Assembly: GCA_900473915.1 (NCBI GenBank)
Contig: UCNG01000001.1
Location: 101,136-165,135 of the forward strand
DNA: 64,000 nt
Direction of reading: 5' to 3'
Origin: Hyphomicrobiales bacterium
Lineage (GTDB): Bacteria > Pseudomonadota > Alphaproteobacteria > Rhizobiales > Rhizobiaceae
A program made the translations under genes and the position numbers. The notes under the pieces were generated by a model. The model was given only the letters and a program-made list of their open reading frames with translations, was not told the origin of the DNA and searched no databases. Within the stretch, counting starts at the first letter, position 1, and each line of letters opens with the position of its first letter. Of this stretch, positions 1,731-31,737 are shown piece after piece.

Positions 1731-1749
1731 TTAACCAAACATTAACCAT
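1731..1749. promoter_or_regulatory. CtrA-like box TTAA-N7-TTAACCAT upstream of ftsE
   Basis: The sequence TTAACCAAACATTAACCAT contains two TTAACC half-sites with exactly seven bases between the TTAA cores, the alphaproteobacterial CtrA consensus. It lies about 80 bases before the ftsE start and 120 bases before the divergent gene. CtrA control of division genes is established in Caulobacter and Brucella; control at this site is inferred. Confidence 0.7.
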
Positions 1750-24470: not shown

Positions 24471-24603
24471 TGCGGAGCGTTACCTAAAGCATGGCGCGCT
24501 GCTTGTAAACGACATGAAAAAGGGAGGCGTCGGGTTGCGCAGTTTCGGAATGATGTCCTGTCAGAATAAATTGATTTTAATCGATATAGCGGCTCATGCC
24601 TGA

Positions 24604-24619
24604 TTGACGTGCACGTCAA
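24604..24619. promoter_or_regulatory. 16-bp perfect palindrome upstream of etfBA (possible operator)
   Basis: TTGACGTGCACGTCAA is self-complementary and lies 160 bases before etfB and about 175 bases before queC. It looks like a dimer-binding operator. It resembles ACGT-centred sites of MerR-type LiuR regulators of branched-chain amino acid and fatty acid catabolism, from memory; that link is speculative. A weaker inverted repeat CATGTC-N7-GACATG follows at 24700-24718. Confidence 0.5.
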
Positions 24620-24778
24620 CCGTCTTTAGGTTTCGTGCCGGTTCCCGGCGGATAGGCAGCGCATTTGCGTCATCATCCAAGTTGCGCCGGTGCCGCTTTC
24701 ATGTCGGATTTTGACATGCGGGTGGGAGTTCACGGCGGCATAGTCGTGCTGCAAGAGTCATTGAAGAGGTAATCGCGG

Positions 24779-25525
24779 ATGAAAGTCCTTGTCGCAGTGA
24801 AACGGGTTGTCGATTACAACGTTAAGATCCGTGTAAAGGGAGACGGTTCGGGGGTTGAGCTTTCGAACGTGAAGATGTCGATGAACCCTTTTGACGAGAT
24901 CGCGGTTGAAGAGGCGATCCGTCTGAAAGAAGCGGGCAAGGTGACGGAAATCGTCGCGGTTTCGGTAGGCCCGGCACAGGCGCAGGAAACGCTGCGCACC
25001 GCACTTGCCATGGGCGCGGATCGCGCGATCCTGGTCAAGACCGACGAGACGGTCGAGCCGCTCGGCGTCGCCAAGGTTTTGAAGGGCGTGGTCGAGGCGG
25101 AAAAGCCGGATCTCGTCTTCCTCGGCAAGCAGGCCATCGATGACGATTCCAACCAGACCGGCCAGATGCTGTCGGCATTGCTTGGCTGGAGCCAGGCGAC
25201 GTTTGCTTCCAAGGTGGAGCTTGCCGACGGTTCGGCCAAGGTGACGCGTGAAGTCGACGGCGGTCTCCAGACCATCGACGTGAAGCTTCCGGCGATCGTC
25301 ACGGTTGATCTGCGTTTGAACCAGCCGCGCTATGCGTCGCTGCCAAACATCATGAAGGCCAAGAAGAAGCCGCTCGATGAAAAGTCGCCTGCCGATTTCG
25401 GCGCTGATATTGCACCGCGTTTGAAGGTTCTGAAGACCGAAGAGCCGGGCGGCCGCAAGGCTGGCGTGAAGGTCGGTTCCGTCGCAGAACTGGTCGAGAA
25501 GCTGAAGGCTGACGGCGTACTTTAA
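24779..25525 (+). CDS. etfB: Electron transfer flavoprotein, beta subunit
   Basis: Small subunit of the FAD/AMP-containing ETF heterodimer that takes electrons from acyl-CoA and other dehydrogenases and passes them to ETF-ubiquinone oxidoreductase. The 248-aa protein starts [20 protein letters not shown] and contains the family pattern [11 protein letters not shown] and the recognition-loop region after [10 protein letters not shown], with the signature [22 protein letters not shown] near 180-200. It lies 23 bases before etfA. Confidence 0.96.
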
Positions 25526-25548
25526 AGAAATCGGAAGGGACAAGACAA

Positions 25549-26478
25549 ATGGCTATTCTTCTTATTGCCGAACATGACAATGCAACCCTTTCCGACCAGA
25601 CGGCCAAGGCGCTGACGGCAGCGGCCCAGATCGGCGGCGATGTCGATATTCTGGTGGCTGGCAAGGGTGCAAAGGCTGCTGCCGATGCGGCGGCAAAGCT
25701 CAAAGGCGTGCGCAAGGTTCTGCTGGCCGAAAGCGATGCGCTGCAAAATCAGCTGGCGGAGCCGATGGCAGCGCTGATCGTGGAACAGGCTGGCAATTAC
25801 GACACGATCATCGCCCCGGCGACGACCTCGGCCAAGAATATCCTGCCGCGCGTGGCAGCGCTTCTCGATGTGATGCAGTTGTCGGAAATCATGGAAGTGG
25901 TGTCGGCTGACACGTTCAAGCGTCCGATCTATGCGGGTAATGCGATCCAGACGGTGCAGTCCACGGATGCCAAGAAGGTGATCACGGTACGCACCGCTTC
26001 CTTCTCCGCAACAGGCGAGGGCGGTTCGGCTGCGGTTGAAAGCGTCAATGCAGCTGCCGATCCGGCACTGTCGAGCTTCGTTGGCAATGCGCTCTCGGAT
26101 TCGGATCGTCCGGAACTGACCTCGGCCAAGATCATCATTTCCGGCGGTCGTGCACTCGGTTCGGCGGAAAAGTTCCAGGAAGTGATCCTGCCGGTTGCCG
26201 ACAAGCTGGGTGCTGCGGTCGGCGCAAGCCGTGCGGCCGTTGATGCGGGCTATGCACCCAACGACTGGCAGGTTGGCCAGACGGGCAAGGTGGTTGCACC
26301 GGACCTTTACATCGCTGTCGGCATCTCGGGTGCGATCCAGCATCTGGCCGGCATGAAGGACAGCCGCGTCATCGTCGCCATCAACAAGGACGAGGAAGCG
26401 CCGATCTTCCAGGTCGCCGATTACGGCCTCGTCGGCGATCTCTTTACCGTGCTGCCGGAACTGCAAAAAGCACTTTGA
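25549..26478 (+). CDS. etfA: Electron transfer flavoprotein, alpha subunit
   Basis: FAD-binding subunit of ETF, 309 aa. Domain I starts [11 protein letters not shown]; the C-terminal FAD domain shows [23 protein letters not shown]-type sequence and ends [16 protein letters not shown], the signature of the alpha subunit. It is followed directly by a 13-bp hairpin terminator, so etfBA is a two-gene unit; the 3-hydroxyacyl-CoA dehydrogenase beyond the repeats is transcribed separately or by read-through. Confidence 0.96.
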
Positions 26479-26484
26479 TCGATC

Positions 26485-26515
26485 AGAAAGCGGCGGGCAG
26501 GTCCCGCCGCTTTCT
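26485..26515 (+). terminator. Intrinsic terminator of etfBA
   Basis: AGAAAGCGGCGGG (26485-26497), five-base loop, exact complement (26503-26515), then a T-rich tail (ATTTTG). Confidence 0.9.
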
Positions 26516-26602
26516 ATTTTGGGGCCCTCATAGACGGAAGTGCTGTTTTTGCCTTTCCGTGAATGAGGGCTGTATCTGTCTTGGACAGAATTGGTATACT
26601 CA

Positions 26603-26767
26603 AGCATTTCCAGCAAAAGTGCGAAGCAGCTTTGCGTCGGATAATGCGTAGAGACAGAGCATTTCCAGCAAAAGTGCGAAGCGGTTTTGCGTTGGATAAT
26701 GCGTAGAGACAGAGCATTTCCAGCAAAAGTGCGAAGCGGTTTTGCGTTGGATAATGCGCAAAAACAA
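26603..26767. repeat. Three 55-bp tandem copies of a Rhizobiales intergenic element
   Basis: Copies begin at 26603, 26658 and 26713, each reading AGCATTTCCAGCAAAAGTGC then GAAGCGGTTTTGCG and GGATAATGCG. The first copy differs at several positions; copies two and three are identical over most of their length. The last copy is followed by AAAAACAAAAGTTAGAGCATATGCTC. Single copies of this motif are familiar from Rhizobiales intergenic regions; tandem amplification is unusual. Confidence 0.85.
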
Positions 26768-26832
26768 AAGTTAGAGCATATGCTCTCGGCGTCGGCTCCG
26801 TTGCGGGGCGGCTGAATGAAGGAGTTGTGATC

Positions 26833-27708
26833 GTGGCAATCAAGACGGTAGGGGTGGTCGGCGCGGGGCAGATGGGCAGCGGGATTGCTCACGTATGCGC
26901 GCTGGCCGGGTTCGATGTGCTTCTTCATGATGCAGCAGCGGACCGGCTGGAAAAGGGCATTGCCACCATCAATGGCAACATGGCGCGCCAGGTTGCGTCG
27001 GGCAAATTGCTGGAAGATCAGCGCGCAGCCGCGATGAAGCTCATTCGTCCGGCAAACTCCATGGAGGATCTGGCAGGCGTCGATCTGGCTATCGAAGCAG
27101 CAACCGAAGACGAAACCGTCAAGCGCAAGATTTTCGCGCAGCTTTGTTCGGTTCTGAACCCGGAAGCGATCCTTGCGACCAATACGTCATCGATCTCGAT
27201 CACGCGCCTTGCATCCACAACGGATCGCCCGGAGCGTTTCATCGGTATTCATTTCATGAATCCTGTTCCGGTGATGAAGCTTGTCGAACTGGTGCGAGGC
27301 ATTGCCACGGACGAGGAAACCTTCCGCAAGTCGAACGATTTCGTGACCGCGCTTGGCAAGACGATAACCGTTGCCGAAGATTTTCCGGCCTTTATCGTCA
27401 ACCGTATCCTGTTGCCGATGATCAACGAGGCCATCTACACGCTTTATGAAGGCGTTGGCAGCGTCGAGGCCATCGATACGGCCATGAAGCTTGGCGCCAA
27501 TCATCCGATGGGGCCGTTGCAGCTTGCCGACTTCATTGGTCTGGATACCTGTCTCTCCATCATGCAGGTTCTGCACGACGGGCTGGCGGATTCCAAGTAT
27601 CGCCCATGCCCGCTTCTGGTCAAATATGTCGAAGCTGGCTGGCTGGGTCGCAAGGCGGGCCGAGGCTTTTACGATTATCGCGGCGAGCATCCGGTCCCGA
27701 CGCGGTAA
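26833..27708 (+). CDS. 3-hydroxybutyryl-CoA dehydrogenase
   Basis: NAD-dependent 3-hydroxyacyl-CoA dehydrogenase, 291 aa, probably acting on short-chain substrates in butanoate or fatty-acid turnover. The dinucleotide motif GAGQMG is at residues 10-15; the C-terminal domain signature is around DFPAFIVNRILLPMINEA, and the catalytic His/Glu are in FIGIHFMNPVPVM. I chose GTG 26833 (MAIKTVGVVG), eight bases after AAGGAG, over GTG 26827, which is too close. Its electrons fit the neighbouring etfBA theme, although this enzyme uses NAD. Confidence 0.94.
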   Translation: MAIKTVGVVGAGQMGSGIAHVCALAGFDVLLHDAAADRLEKGIATINGNMARQVASGKLLEDQRAAAMKLIRPANSMEDLAGVDLAIEAATEDETVKRKIFAQLCSVLNPEAILATNTSSISITRLASTTDRPERFIGIHFMNPVPVMKLVELVRGIATDEETFRKSNDFVTALGKTITVAEDFPAFIVNRILLPMINEAIYTLYEGVGSVEAIDTAMKLGANHPMGPLQLADFIGLDTCLSIMQVLHDGLADSKYRPCPLLVKYVEAGWLGRKAGRGFYDYRGEHPVPTR

Positions 27709-27730
27709 GTCGCTCCTTCTTCTGCGCATG

Positions 27731-27756
27731 AAAGGCCGGATCGAACCGGCCTTTTT
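27731..27756 (+). terminator. Intrinsic terminator after the dehydrogenase gene
   Basis: AAAGGCCGG, loop ATCGAA, CCGGCCTTT then TT. A strong GC stem with a T-run, 23 bases after the stop. Confidence 0.9.
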
Positions 27757-27807
27757 CAATTGTGGCGACAATTCGCGGGCTGTGGAAAAGCTTGAACATC
27801 CTTACCA

Positions 27808-27826
27808 TTAACTTACCCTTAACCAT
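27808..27826. promoter_or_regulatory. CtrA-like box TTAA-N7-TTAACCAT ahead of a small ORF
   Basis: TTAACTTACCCTTAACCAT has exactly seven bases between TTAA cores, like the box before ftsE. It stands after the terminator of the preceding gene and 141 bases before a 42-aa ORF, so it probably controls that unit. A second, looser pair (TTAA-N8-TTAA) follows in 27857-27872. Confidence 0.65.
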
Positions 27827-27966
27827 ATGAGTTCAGGGCTTATTCATCTTTGATTGTTAAAGTTTTCATTAAGATGTTCGGAAATGAAAAACGTTTTATC
27901 GTCCCGGTTGGACGAGCATGACGGGCATCCATTCCGAATAGCGTGTTTTTGACGAAGGTTAAGACG

Positions 27967-28095
27967 ATGAGCATTCTTGTTCAGTTGCGTGACAGCGTTA
28001 ATGTCATCCGTGAGTTCGTCGCACCGAGCTATAGGCCCGAGCGCCATTATATGCGCGGACCAGGTCCTGCTTGCGCTGCGCGTACGCACCATTGA
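27967..28095 (+). CDS. Candidate 42-aa small protein, possibly CtrA-regulated
   Basis: The frame starts MSILVQLRDSVNVIREFVAP and ends ACAARTHH. GAAGG lies eight bases before the ATG. The unit has its own upstream CtrA-like box (27808) and its own downstream intrinsic terminator (28148), both on this strand, and it is isolated from the preceding gene by another terminator. I recognise no family. The N-terminal 20 residues could form an amphipathic helix. It might instead be a leader peptide or the visible part of a regulatory RNA. Confidence 0.45.
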   Translation: MSILVQLRDSVNVIREFVAPSYRPERHYMRGPGPACAARTHH

Positions 28096-28147
28096 TATGA
28101 GTGCCTGAGCTTCCGTTTGCCCGGCGAGCGGATCGGCATTGAAAAAG

Positions 28148-28179
28148 TAAAGCCAGAACGGTTGTCCGCTCTGGCTTTT
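28148..28179 (+). terminator. Intrinsic terminator between the small ORF and cysK
   Basis: AAAGCCAGAACGG, loop TTGT, then CCGCTCTGGCTTT with one mismatch, followed by TGTTTTTGG. The T-run is on the plus strand, but the A-run on the other side lets it also close cysK. Confidence 0.85.
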
Positions 28180-28206
28180 GTTTTTGGCCCTCACGAGGCA
28201 GATGGA

Positions 28207-29193
28207 TTATTCCAGGCCTTCGAACAATGCTGTTGAAAGATAGCGTTCGGCAAAGGATGGAATGATGATGACGATGTTCTTGCCAGCATTTTCGGGACGC
28301 TTGCCGATTTCGACAGCGGCGGTCAGTGCAGCGCCGGAAGAAATGCCGACCGGAATGCCTTCAATGCGGGCAAGCAGGCGCGCATTGGCAAAAGCATCTT
28401 CGTTGGAAACCTGAACGACTTCGTCATAGACGCCGGTATCGAGAGTCTTGGGGGCAAAGCCTGCGCCGATGCCCTGAATCTTGTGCGGACCGGGTGTGCC
28501 GCCGGAGAGAACGGGTGAATCTTTCGGTTCCACCGCGATCACCTTGAAAGACGGCTTACGCCCCTTGATGACCTGCCCCACACCGGTGATCGTTCCACCG
28601 GTGCCAATGCCGGAGATCAGGATATCGGCTTCGCCATTGGTGTCGTTCCAGATTTCTTCAGCCGTCGTCAGGCGATGAATTTCAGGATTGGCGGGATTCT
28701 CGAACTGCTGCGGGATGATCGCGTTCGGGTTGCCTTCGGCAATGGCTTCCGCCTCTGCGATGGCGCCCTTCATGCCCTTTGCTCCTTCGGTCAGCACCAG
28801 TTCGGCGCCAAGAAGCTTGAGGAGTTTGCGGCGCTCTACCGACATGGTTTCCGGCATGGTGAGGATGAGGCGATAGCCCTTGGCCGCAGCGGCAAAGGCA
28901 AGCGCGATGCCGGTATTGCCGGAAGTGGGTTCAACGAAAACCGTCTTGCCCGGCACGGCCCTGCCGTCGCGTTCAAGCGCTTCGATCAGCGCCAGGCCGA
29001 TGCGGTCCTTCACGCTGGCCAGAGGGTTGAAGAACTCCAGCTTGGCCAGAAGGTTCGCTTTCACGCCCTTTTCCTCGGCAAACTTGTCGATGCGCACCAG
29101 AGGCGTATTGCCGATCGTGTCGAGAATGGAATCGTAAATGCGGCCACGGCCTGCGGTTTTGCCAGCTTGCGGTTCGTTCAGGGGCTTGTTCAT
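28207..29193 (-). CDS. cysK: Cysteine synthase A (O-acetylserine sulfhydrylase)
   Basis: PLP enzyme making L-cysteine from O-acetylserine and sulfide. The Schiff-base lysine is K62 in ASVKDRIG, the substrate loop TSGNTG is at 90-95, and [10 protein letters not shown] binds the PLP phosphate near residue 190. Length 328 aa is slightly over average because of a 20-residue N-terminal extension ([20 protein letters not shown]). CysM-type specificity is less likely but not excluded. Confidence 0.94.
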
Positions 29194-29435
29194 GGCGTGA
29201 TCTCCCTTTTTGTCACGCGAAGTTTAAGAGGAAACTGCGCAAAAGCATAGTTGGGCATGTGCGCTCGATTGGGCAAGTTTGGAAATTTATTCTGTATAAT
29301 TGTGAAAATTAGGAGTAAATTCCATCGTAATTGGAAGGACGCGTATTAGCCTTGAATGAAGCTCGATTGATCCGCGTCAATGCGCCCGGACAGGCAGGCG
29401 CGCATCATCGGACATCAGGCAACAGGAGAGTACGC

Positions 29436-29885
29436 ATGTACACGAACATATTGATCGCGACAGATGGATCGGAACTTGCCGAAAAAGGTGTCGATCAGGG
29501 CGTGGCGCTGGCGAAGGAAACAGGAGCGAAGGTAACCTTCGTCTCCGTGACCGAGCTGTTGCCTTCCTATGGCATTGTCGTTGCAGCCGAATGGGCGTCC
29601 AGCCCGGCGGCGTTTCAGGAATATCGTGAGGCTATCACCAAGGCGGCCACGGAAATCCTGACGAAGGCCAAAGCCAAGGCAACGGAGATCGGTGTCAGTG
29701 CCGAAGCGGTTCATATCGAGAATCAATCACCGGCGCAGGGCATTGTGGAGGCGGCCAATGCCAGGAATGCCGATCTGATCGTCATTGCATCGCATGGCCG
29801 TCGCGGTGTGAACAAGCTGCTGCTCGGAAGTCAGGCGGCGGAGGTCCTGTCGCTCAGCACGGTGCCGGTCTTGGTCATAAAGTAA
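29436..29885 (+). CDS. Universal stress protein, UspA family
   Basis: A 149-aa single-domain Usp: it begins MYTNILIATDGSELAEKGV and ends with the nucleotide-loop region IASHGRRGVNKLLLGSQAAEVL and PVLVIK. That loop suggests an ATP-binding type. The ATG at 29436 follows GGAG; the open frame back to 29331 is not needed. It is divergent from cysK, with an AT-rich stretch between them that includes TATAAT at about 29296. Its precise physiological role cannot be inferred. Confidence 0.93.
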   Translation: MYTNILIATDGSELAEKGVDQGVALAKETGAKVTFVSVTELLPSYGIVVAAEWASSPAAFQEYREAITKAATEILTKAKAKATEIGVSAEAVHIENQSPAQGIVEAANARNADLIVIASHGRRGVNKLLLGSQAAEVLSLSTVPVLVIK

Positions 29886-31310
<1,425 letters not shown>

Positions 31311-31323
31311 TTCATTATGCGAC

Positions 31324-31355
31324 GGAAAGCAGCGACCGGTTTATTGCTGCTTTCC
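31324..31355. terminator. Hairpin between convergent PLP-enzyme and pentapeptide genes
   Basis: GGAAAGCAGC (31324-31333), 12-base loop, exact complement (31346-31355). It may end both convergent transcripts. Confidence 0.7.
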
Positions 31356-31359
31356 TCGG

Positions 31360-31737
31360 CTAGTCTAAGGAACGCGCGTTTTCATACGCTTCGAACAGAG
31401 AGGAGACGAGAACGCCGTTTATCCGCATACCCGTCACGTCAGCATCGGTTATATTCGTATGTGCCAAAGTCACGCCGCTTATAGCCAAGCCACTCATGTT
31501 GGCATTCGTAATTGTCGCACCGGTCATATTGATATTATGAAGGCGCGCCCCTGCGAGATTGACATCGTCAAAATCAGCGCCGCTCAAATTGGTATCGATG
31601 AACTTTGACTTGGTCAAAACCGCAAAAAACTTTGAACCGGACAAATCCACGCCATCGAAATTCGAGCCCGACATATCCGCACGTTCATAATGCGCATTTT
31701 GCAACTGTGGTCCCTCAAAGGGGTGAGTGTCATCCAT
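31360..31737 (-). CDS. Pentapeptide-repeat protein
   Basis: A 125-aa protein made almost wholly of A(D/N)LxX-type pentapeptide repeats from about residue 17 to 100 (for example ADMSG, SNFDG, VDLSG, TNLSG, ADFDD, VNLAG, ARLHN, INMTG), which fold as a right-handed quadrilateral beta helix. No signal peptide or extra domain is present. Some members mimic DNA and protect gyrase (Qnr, MfpA), but this one is too short to infer that. Function unknown. Confidence 0.9.
   Translation of the reverse strand: MDDTHPFEGPQLQNAHYERADMSGSNFDGVDLSGSKFFAVLTKSKFIDTNLSGADFDDVNLAGARLHNINMTGATITNANMSGLAISGVTLAHTNITDADVTGMRINGVLVSSLFEAYENARSLD

Follow-up and report, generated by a model that had tools for sequence, protein, structure and literature searches.

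A conserved 42-codon gene behind a CtrA-type box in a Brucella/Ochrobactrum-like genome, and its small-protein family

In the 64,000-nucleotide stretch of Hyphomicrobiales DNA analysed here (assembly GCA_900473915.1, contig UCNG01000001.1, positions 101,136 to 165,135; hereafter the window), we identified a 42-codon open reading frame (ORF) preceded by a CtrA-type box and located between hbd, which encodes a 3-hydroxyacyl-CoA dehydrogenase, and a cysK-like gene. The window is Brucella/Ochrobactrum-like, its hbd protein being 94% identical to that of Brucella pituitosa. With moderate confidence, we favour the reading that the ORF is a protein-coding gene with its own promoter, whose product is a predicted CtrA-timed, trans-acting accessory or regulatory small protein. 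CtrA would bind the box and time transcription, the N-terminal helix of the product would lie on the inner face of the membrane, and a near-invariant core would dock on a partner protein, the small protein serving in trans as an accessory or regulatory subunit. For some other lineages, the probable partner is encoded within the operon of the small gene itself (a SoeABC-like molybdoenzyme, a sulfatase with its maturase, or a TRAP or tripartite transporter); the Brucella small gene stands alone, outside any such operon. A preliminary description of this DNA had placed the box, the ORF and a terminator between two unrelated genes, and all three are present in the sequence (Table 1). The near-invariant 34-bp element behind the box and the protein family had not been noted there.

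Coding potential of the 42-codon frame

A genus-wide search detected the ORF, at E 1e-6 or better, in all 35 of the Brucella-genus genomes. Among 80 loci fetched with hbd, four carry it in the same place (L001, L002, L006, and L009; E 7.5e-19 or better), and the remaining tblastn matches in this set are chance-like, with E values of 0.046 or worse. One of the four, L006, derives from a record titled Bacillus subtilis SK6B4; its sequence is Brucellaceae-like, and the assembly is perhaps mislabelled or contaminated.

The codon-substitution check that the preliminary description had proposed was carried out on 36 sequences (33 Brucella-genus genomes with an open frame, the window, L083, and L086), corresponding to 34 distinct ORF DNAs; L291 and L295, in which the frame is broken, were excluded. 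Across these 34, the variable columns at the first, second and third codon positions numbered 18, 12, and 40 of 42, respectively. We counted 110 distinct changes from the window sequence, 63 of them synonymous and 47 not, whereas random placement of the changes gave a mean of 29.4 synonymous and a maximum of 44 over 5000 draws. The ratio of nonsynonymous to synonymous substitution rates relative to the window (dN/dS) ranged from 0 to 0.15 in nine of ten pairs, and the tenth (L083) was saturated at synonymous sites.

Short ORFs are common in this part of the window, where 85 of at least 25 residues overlap positions 24500–31500. It is nevertheless extremely improbable that the 42-codon frame arose by chance or is the shadow of an antisense ORF on the cysK strand, because the excess of synonymous changes favours the sense frame, the antisense open frame is interrupted by a stop inside the ORF stretch in 8 of 34 sequences, and homologues occur at unrelated genomic places. 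Together, the codon statistics and the antisense stops identify the sense frame as the coding frame. Judged by this substitution pattern, the ORF is a gene under purifying selection, and the earlier proposal of a small gene in its own right is strongly supported by frame conservation, by synonymous bias and by the relatives found elsewhere in other genomes.

The upstream box, the 34-bp element and the downstream hairpin

The CtrA consensus is TTAA-N7-TTAA(C), with this spacing. The box ahead of the ORF matches it exactly, as had been reported, and TTAA-N7-TTAAC occurs twice in the 64-kb window against an expectation of 0.06. The second occurrence lies upstream of an ORF that we take to encode an ftsE-like ATPase, presumably a plausible CtrA target.

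For comparison of the promoter, we aligned 36 Brucella-genus sequences (35 genomes and the window). TTAA-N7-TTAA was exact in 30 and contained one mismatch in six, and its place was fixed relative to the 34-bp element. Mean column identity reached 0.979 at the eight TTAA positions and 0.966 across the element, compared with 0.817 in the box spacer and 0.736 between box and element; the flanks 5′ of the box and 3′ of the element averaged 0.821 and 0.806. The leader measured from the start of the element to the ATG varied in length from 75 to 178 nt and the box-element spacing was constant. Box, element and free leader together look like a promoter with two protein- or polymerase-binding parts, in which the element may represent the core promoter, a second operator, or the 5′ end of the RNA. 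When four genomes were scanned for the element with up to three mismatches, each contained a single match at its own locus; we therefore set aside a wider regulon defined by this element.

All 36 sequences retain TTAA-N7-TTAA with no more than one mismatch, which supports the CtrA control that the preliminary description had put forward; on present sequence comparisons, such predicted control is the interpretation of the box that we prefer for the Brucella lineage. We consider it rather unlikely that the small protein is real and the box is not a working CtrA site, either because another regulator acts there or because CtrA binds without timing transcription. Such an arrangement would accommodate the six imperfect boxes and the element, which nearly equals the TTAA positions in conservation and was found only at its own locus in the four genomes scanned. 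Against it, the TTAA columns rise above their own spacer in the spacing expected for CtrA, and the other exact box of the window precedes the presumed ftsE-like gene.

Outside the Brucella genus, 17 Mesorhizobium-type members of the window's subfamily carry TTAA-N7-TTCAC, one base off the consensus, ending 71–77 nt before the ATG. Of 148 upstream regions, 26 agreed with the box at eight or nine of its nine positions. The window's subfamily accounts for 24 of these, including L083, whose best match lies on the opposite strand. We also observed, after the fact, that the word GTTCACC is common to the regions upstream of Brucella-, Mesorhizobium-, and Bradyrhizobium-type copies, which is an unproven lead.

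The preliminary description had placed a strong terminator downstream of the ORF. A hairpin with T tracts on both sides is indeed present there, and it is shared with the convergent cysK-like gene. On the + strand it contains one A.C mismatch (-20.5 kcal/mol, z -4.2), whereas the - strand pairs throughout, with one G.U (-24.7 kcal/mol, z -5.2), and a consensus terminator scan reported it on the - strand only. The better pairing and the scan result indicate that the cysK-like gene has at least an equal claim to this hairpin as its terminator; both genes could use it, and it suits the cysK-like gene better. A hairpin with a T tract was found 3′ of the ORF in 35 of 38 sequences, and in 18 of those 35, including the window, the hairpin on the ORF strand contains one mismatch.

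These features also bear on a dual-function transcript, in which the 5′ element would be the working part of a small regulatory RNA with the ORF embedded in it. Transcription starting immediately after the box would place the element at the 5′ end of such an RNA; the element also exceeds the following stretch in conservation, and most sequences have a hairpin with T tract 3′ of the ORF. We regard this as improbable, however. When the element was folded in 13 sequences (the window and 12 relatives), no common pairing was apparent by eye and mean pairing probability was 0.42–0.65. An Rfam scan of the window returned tRNA as the sole family reaching its gathering score, and the part shared across subfamilies is the ORF, not the element. 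Of the small protein or RNA suggested earlier, a protein rather than an RNA only is strongly supported, by frame conservation, synonymous bias and the existence of the family.

According to the available part of a review (PMC10787603), dozens of genes for envelope and division functions in Brucella are reported to have promoters bound by CtrA. The window locus resembles the CtrA-controlled genes described for Brucella and Sinorhizobium (available parts of PMC10787603 and PMC4433202) in having a box of the expected type in front of an independent unit; it differs in that the gene is a small ORF, found in no paper in a limited literature search, and that the site is putative only. GspR (SmelC775) is described in the accessible portion of PMC5928217 as a Sinorhizobium meliloti small RNA that represses ctrA, and it shares with the window the character of a short unit tied to the CtrA circuit. 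In contrast, the conserved entity in the window is a protein. On gene neighbourhood, we set aside identity with GspR because, in the same portion of that source, GspR lies between homologues of SMc03844 and SMc03845, whereas the window unit lies between hbd and cysK.

The protein family and its genomic settings

Searching with the window protein gave matches at E 0.001 or better in 63 of the 397 genomes sampled from the order, and a profile built from 24 members matched 64 of the 397, with up to four matches per genome. The class sample yielded 16 matched genomes of 385 and the phylum sample 18 of 299, every one of the latter already contained in the order or class samples. Because the genome searches score only part of the candidates found at first look, these counts are lower bounds. 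In a set of 50 named genomes, 25 carry the small protein at E 1e-4. They represent Brucella, Falsochrobactrum, Phyllobacterium, Mesorhizobium, Nitratireductor, Aliihoeflea, Jiella, Fulvimarina, Bradyrhizobium, and Rhodoplanes, together with two metagenome-assembled genomes and the assembly titled Bacillus subtilis SK6B4; at the same threshold the protein is absent from all Rhizobium, Agrobacterium, Neorhizobium, and Shinella genomes of the set. A few further copies were found in plasmid records; at four of five matches the gene table, which is incomplete, lists no gene. In two large genomes (L191 and L192), two copies of the small gene lie ~2.2 kb apart on the same strand.

Members of the family share the core Y-x-P-E-x-H-Y-M-R-G-x-G-P, which the window protein also carries according to two alignments and column counts. 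The pattern used for picking members demands part of this core and left 149 places, loci without it being dropped (at least L087, L088, L133, and L246). Positions that the pattern does not demand are also conserved: the following G in 62 of 66, the P in 62 of 66, and a K or R five positions after that P in 50 of 63. The segment ahead of the core varies in sequence and is mostly amphipathic and often basic. Among 66 of the 68 subfamily representatives (two with too short a segment were omitted), amphipathicity averaged z 1.32 and exceeded z 1 in 46, and mean charge was +2.1.

Two departures from this architecture were observed. In L231, L232, L236, L239, L240, L242, and L244 the core is followed by a C-terminal hydrophobic segment, and in six of these seven no ATG, GTG or TTG was found far enough before the core. 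Shorter relatives from the class sample (L126–L132) keep YxPExxYMRG and lose the following GP, and two of them end right after MRG.

The window protein had no Pfam and no NCBIfam match at E up to 10, and the 24 members scanned gave single weak library matches only, the best at E 0.03; across Pfam, NCBIfam, PHROGs, and PDB we found no family match beyond isolated weak ones. DUF1127 comprises small arginine-rich proteins of Alphaproteobacteria, which the present proteins resemble in size and basic character; it is not among the Pfam matches of the 24 members at E up to 1. The string MRGPGPA had no match in a full-text literature search inside words, and RGPGP does not occur in the main texts of PMC5082802 and PMC10117765.

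Neighbouring genes were counted within 1.5 kb of 147 members (68 subfamilies), with one copy taken per locus although L191 and L192 hold two. In 43 of the 147, a SoeABC-like, sulfatase or maturase, transporter, SulP or cysK gene was present, the window copy being included through its convergent cysK alone; this neighbourhood does not define the family.

One setting involves SoeA- or SoeC-like genes (molybdopterin oxidoreductase or its anchor), which lie on the same strand in 22 of 22 members from nine subfamilies. Our SoeABC-like label rests on presumed size and gene order. The best NCBIfam profile of the SoeA-like enzyme is thiosulfate reductase PhsA, far below the model cut-off, and the anchor of L228 matches Pfam DmsC. 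In three 16-kb SoeA-like loci an anchor-like protein was present in all, and by our own reading a protein with a 4Fe-4S-type cysteine pattern comes next in one. A LysR regulator ahead of the SoeA-like enzyme accompanies 20 members. Its similarity to the selenium-associated LysR model and to the YeiE model stays below both cut-offs. In Salmonella, YeiE has been linked to sulfite resistance (accessible part of PMC12880088).

Several other same-strand arrangements were identified. An anaerobic sulfatase maturase lies downstream of seven members (7/7 on the same strand), that of L111 matching TIGR03942 above its cut-off, and a sulfatase-like gene lies upstream of four (4/4; below cut-off, partial ORFs). 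One member has a SulP-like permease upstream (below cut-off, partial ORF). Three members have a TRAP fused permease beside them (3/3), that of L115 scoring above cut-off, and three have upstream a permease that we designate TctA-like (3/3), for which no NCBIfam family was found in the case of L208. Across 41 loci of ~12–16 kb, TRAP permeases occurred within 1.5 kb in seven, at 1.5–4.5 kb in one and further away in none; four of the seven form one syntenic group by our own reading. Part of the family agrees with a theme of sulfur-oxyanion enzymes and membrane transport. We judged an iron link through mbfA, which lies within 1.5 kb upstream and on the same strand in 9 of the 147 members, to reflect lineage synteny and rejected it.

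The operon settings raise the question of a leader or arrest peptide that would control the following gene through attenuation. The small gene of some relatives lies directly ahead of a SoeA-like or maturase gene; at the three SoeA-like junctions read, the stop and start codons overlap in all three (ATGA twice, TAATG once), and the GPGP of the core is loosely reminiscent of stalling motifs. This explanation is very improbable, since in the window the next gene is convergent with a hairpin between, and elsewhere the small gene lies downstream of its operon neighbours (one SoeC-like, three TctA-like, four sulfatase-like), where no leader is possible. With members at operon ends, in front and alone, the family is not a set of leader peptides.

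CydX-type subunits offer a different comparison. CydX of the cytochrome bd oxidase is required in Brucella abortus (Sun et al, 2012, as cited in the available part of PMC10117765). Like CydX, the present proteins comprise a few dozen residues and part of the family is encoded with a membrane redox complex; unlike it, the window copy lies outside such an operon and the segment before the core appears amphipathic rather than membrane-spanning. The likeness is one of size and of the gene setting in part of the family.

Overall, the observations are best accommodated by a small protein that would act in trans, with an N-terminus inclined towards the membrane and a core for docking, on either varied partners or one common hub. 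More tentatively, we propose an undescribed Alphaproteobacterial family whose core would dock on a common hub or on sulfur-oxyanion membrane redox and transport complexes, with different local control in each lineage and the Brucella/Ochrobactrum copy wired to CtrA by way of the box and the 34-bp element, the latter seen at no other locus of the genomes scanned.

Several observations weigh against the favoured reading of a CtrA-timed protein acting in trans on a partner. The preliminary description had held that frame-disrupting mutations among close relatives would tell against the gene; such mutations were seen in 2 of the 35 Brucella-genus genomes (L291 and L295) and not in the other 33, which implies that the protein is dispensable in some genomes or that those assemblies err. 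Within the 148 upstream regions, no CtrA box was found in other subfamilies apart from L110 and L239, and CtrA control is not a family-wide trait. In L081, which is closely related to the window protein, the stretch preceding the core carries a net charge of 0. The genes entering the neighbour count were picked after the neighbours had been viewed, with distance as the sole control and random places not counted. No single partner emerges, as 15 members lie behind a DUF6894 gene (Pfam match for L134) and 19 are divergent to a gene that we label ettA-like. Finally, nine of nine Brucellaceae-type genomes yielded no SoeA-like enzyme at E 1e-60 or better, and neither did the two Bradyrhizobium and two Nitratireductor genomes with the small protein; both Phyllobacterium genomes contain this enzyme, not adjacent to the small gene.

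A SoeA-accessory role for the Brucella copy is accordingly unsupported. With no SoeA-like enzyme found in those genomes at E 1e-60 and with cysK convergent in Brucella, the sulfur-oxyanion and transport theme cannot be transferred to the window.

The surrounding locus and implications

The coordinates of the features are collected in Table 1. The label of the cysK-like gene was given from sequence and is our assumption. The preceding hbd gene has its own intrinsic terminator, in agreement with the preliminary description; the stretch folds with -18.6 kcal/mol (z -4.0) and was not listed by the consensus terminator scan. The 9-mer upstream of the box recurs in the majority of the Brucella-genus sequences inspected, though not in every one, and is presumably one base away from a reversed DnaA box, which we treat as a weak lead. 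The ribosome binding site described earlier corresponds to a site-like GAAGG, and a purine-rich stretch ahead of the ATG was also seen in the relatives inspected. Further upstream, a 55-bp tandem repeat (26603–26758; 2.8 copies, 97% match) lies between hbd and a gene that we take to be etfA-like.

Table 1. Features in and around the 42-codon gene, in window coordinates
Feature	Position	Strand	Remarks
Second box, TTAA-N7-TTAACCAT	1731–1749		exact; upstream of presumed ftsE-like ATPase ORF
hbd			Pfam 3HCDH match; upstream neighbour of the ORF
Intrinsic terminator of hbd	27734–27756	+	stem GGCCGG, 6 nt, CCGGCC, then TTTTT
9-mer TGTGGAAAA	27781–27789	+	upstream of CtrA-type box
11-bp direct repeat CTTACCATTAA / CTTACCCTTAA	27801–27822	+	overlaps CtrA-type box
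CtrA-type box TTAACTTACCCTTAACCAT, TTAA-N7-TTAACCAT	27808–27826	+	exact
Near-invariant 34-bp element TTCATCTTTnATnGTTAAAGTTTTCATTAAGATG	27843–27876	+	identity 0.966, n=36
GAAGG, ribosome-binding-site-like	27954–27958	+	8 nt ahead of ATG
42-aa ORF	27967–28095	+	ATG at 27967; stop 28093–28095 included
Codons of family core YRPERHYMRGPGPA	28030–28071	+	residues 22–35; two alignments, column counts
Hairpin with T tracts on both sides	28149–28178	both	candidate bidirectional terminator common to ORF and cysK-like gene
cysK-like gene (presumed)	28207–29193	-	downstream, convergent to the ORF

These results suggest that CtrA, the master cell-cycle regulator in a genus that includes important pathogens, may count among its outputs a conserved protein missing from the searched family libraries. 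They also expose a larger small-protein family that annotation has seemingly overlooked or called hypothetical. Because copies of the gene lie inside operons in harmless rhizobia, the question of the partner is directly testable there, and if the core binds one conserved hub, it would represent a new kind of small-protein docking signal.
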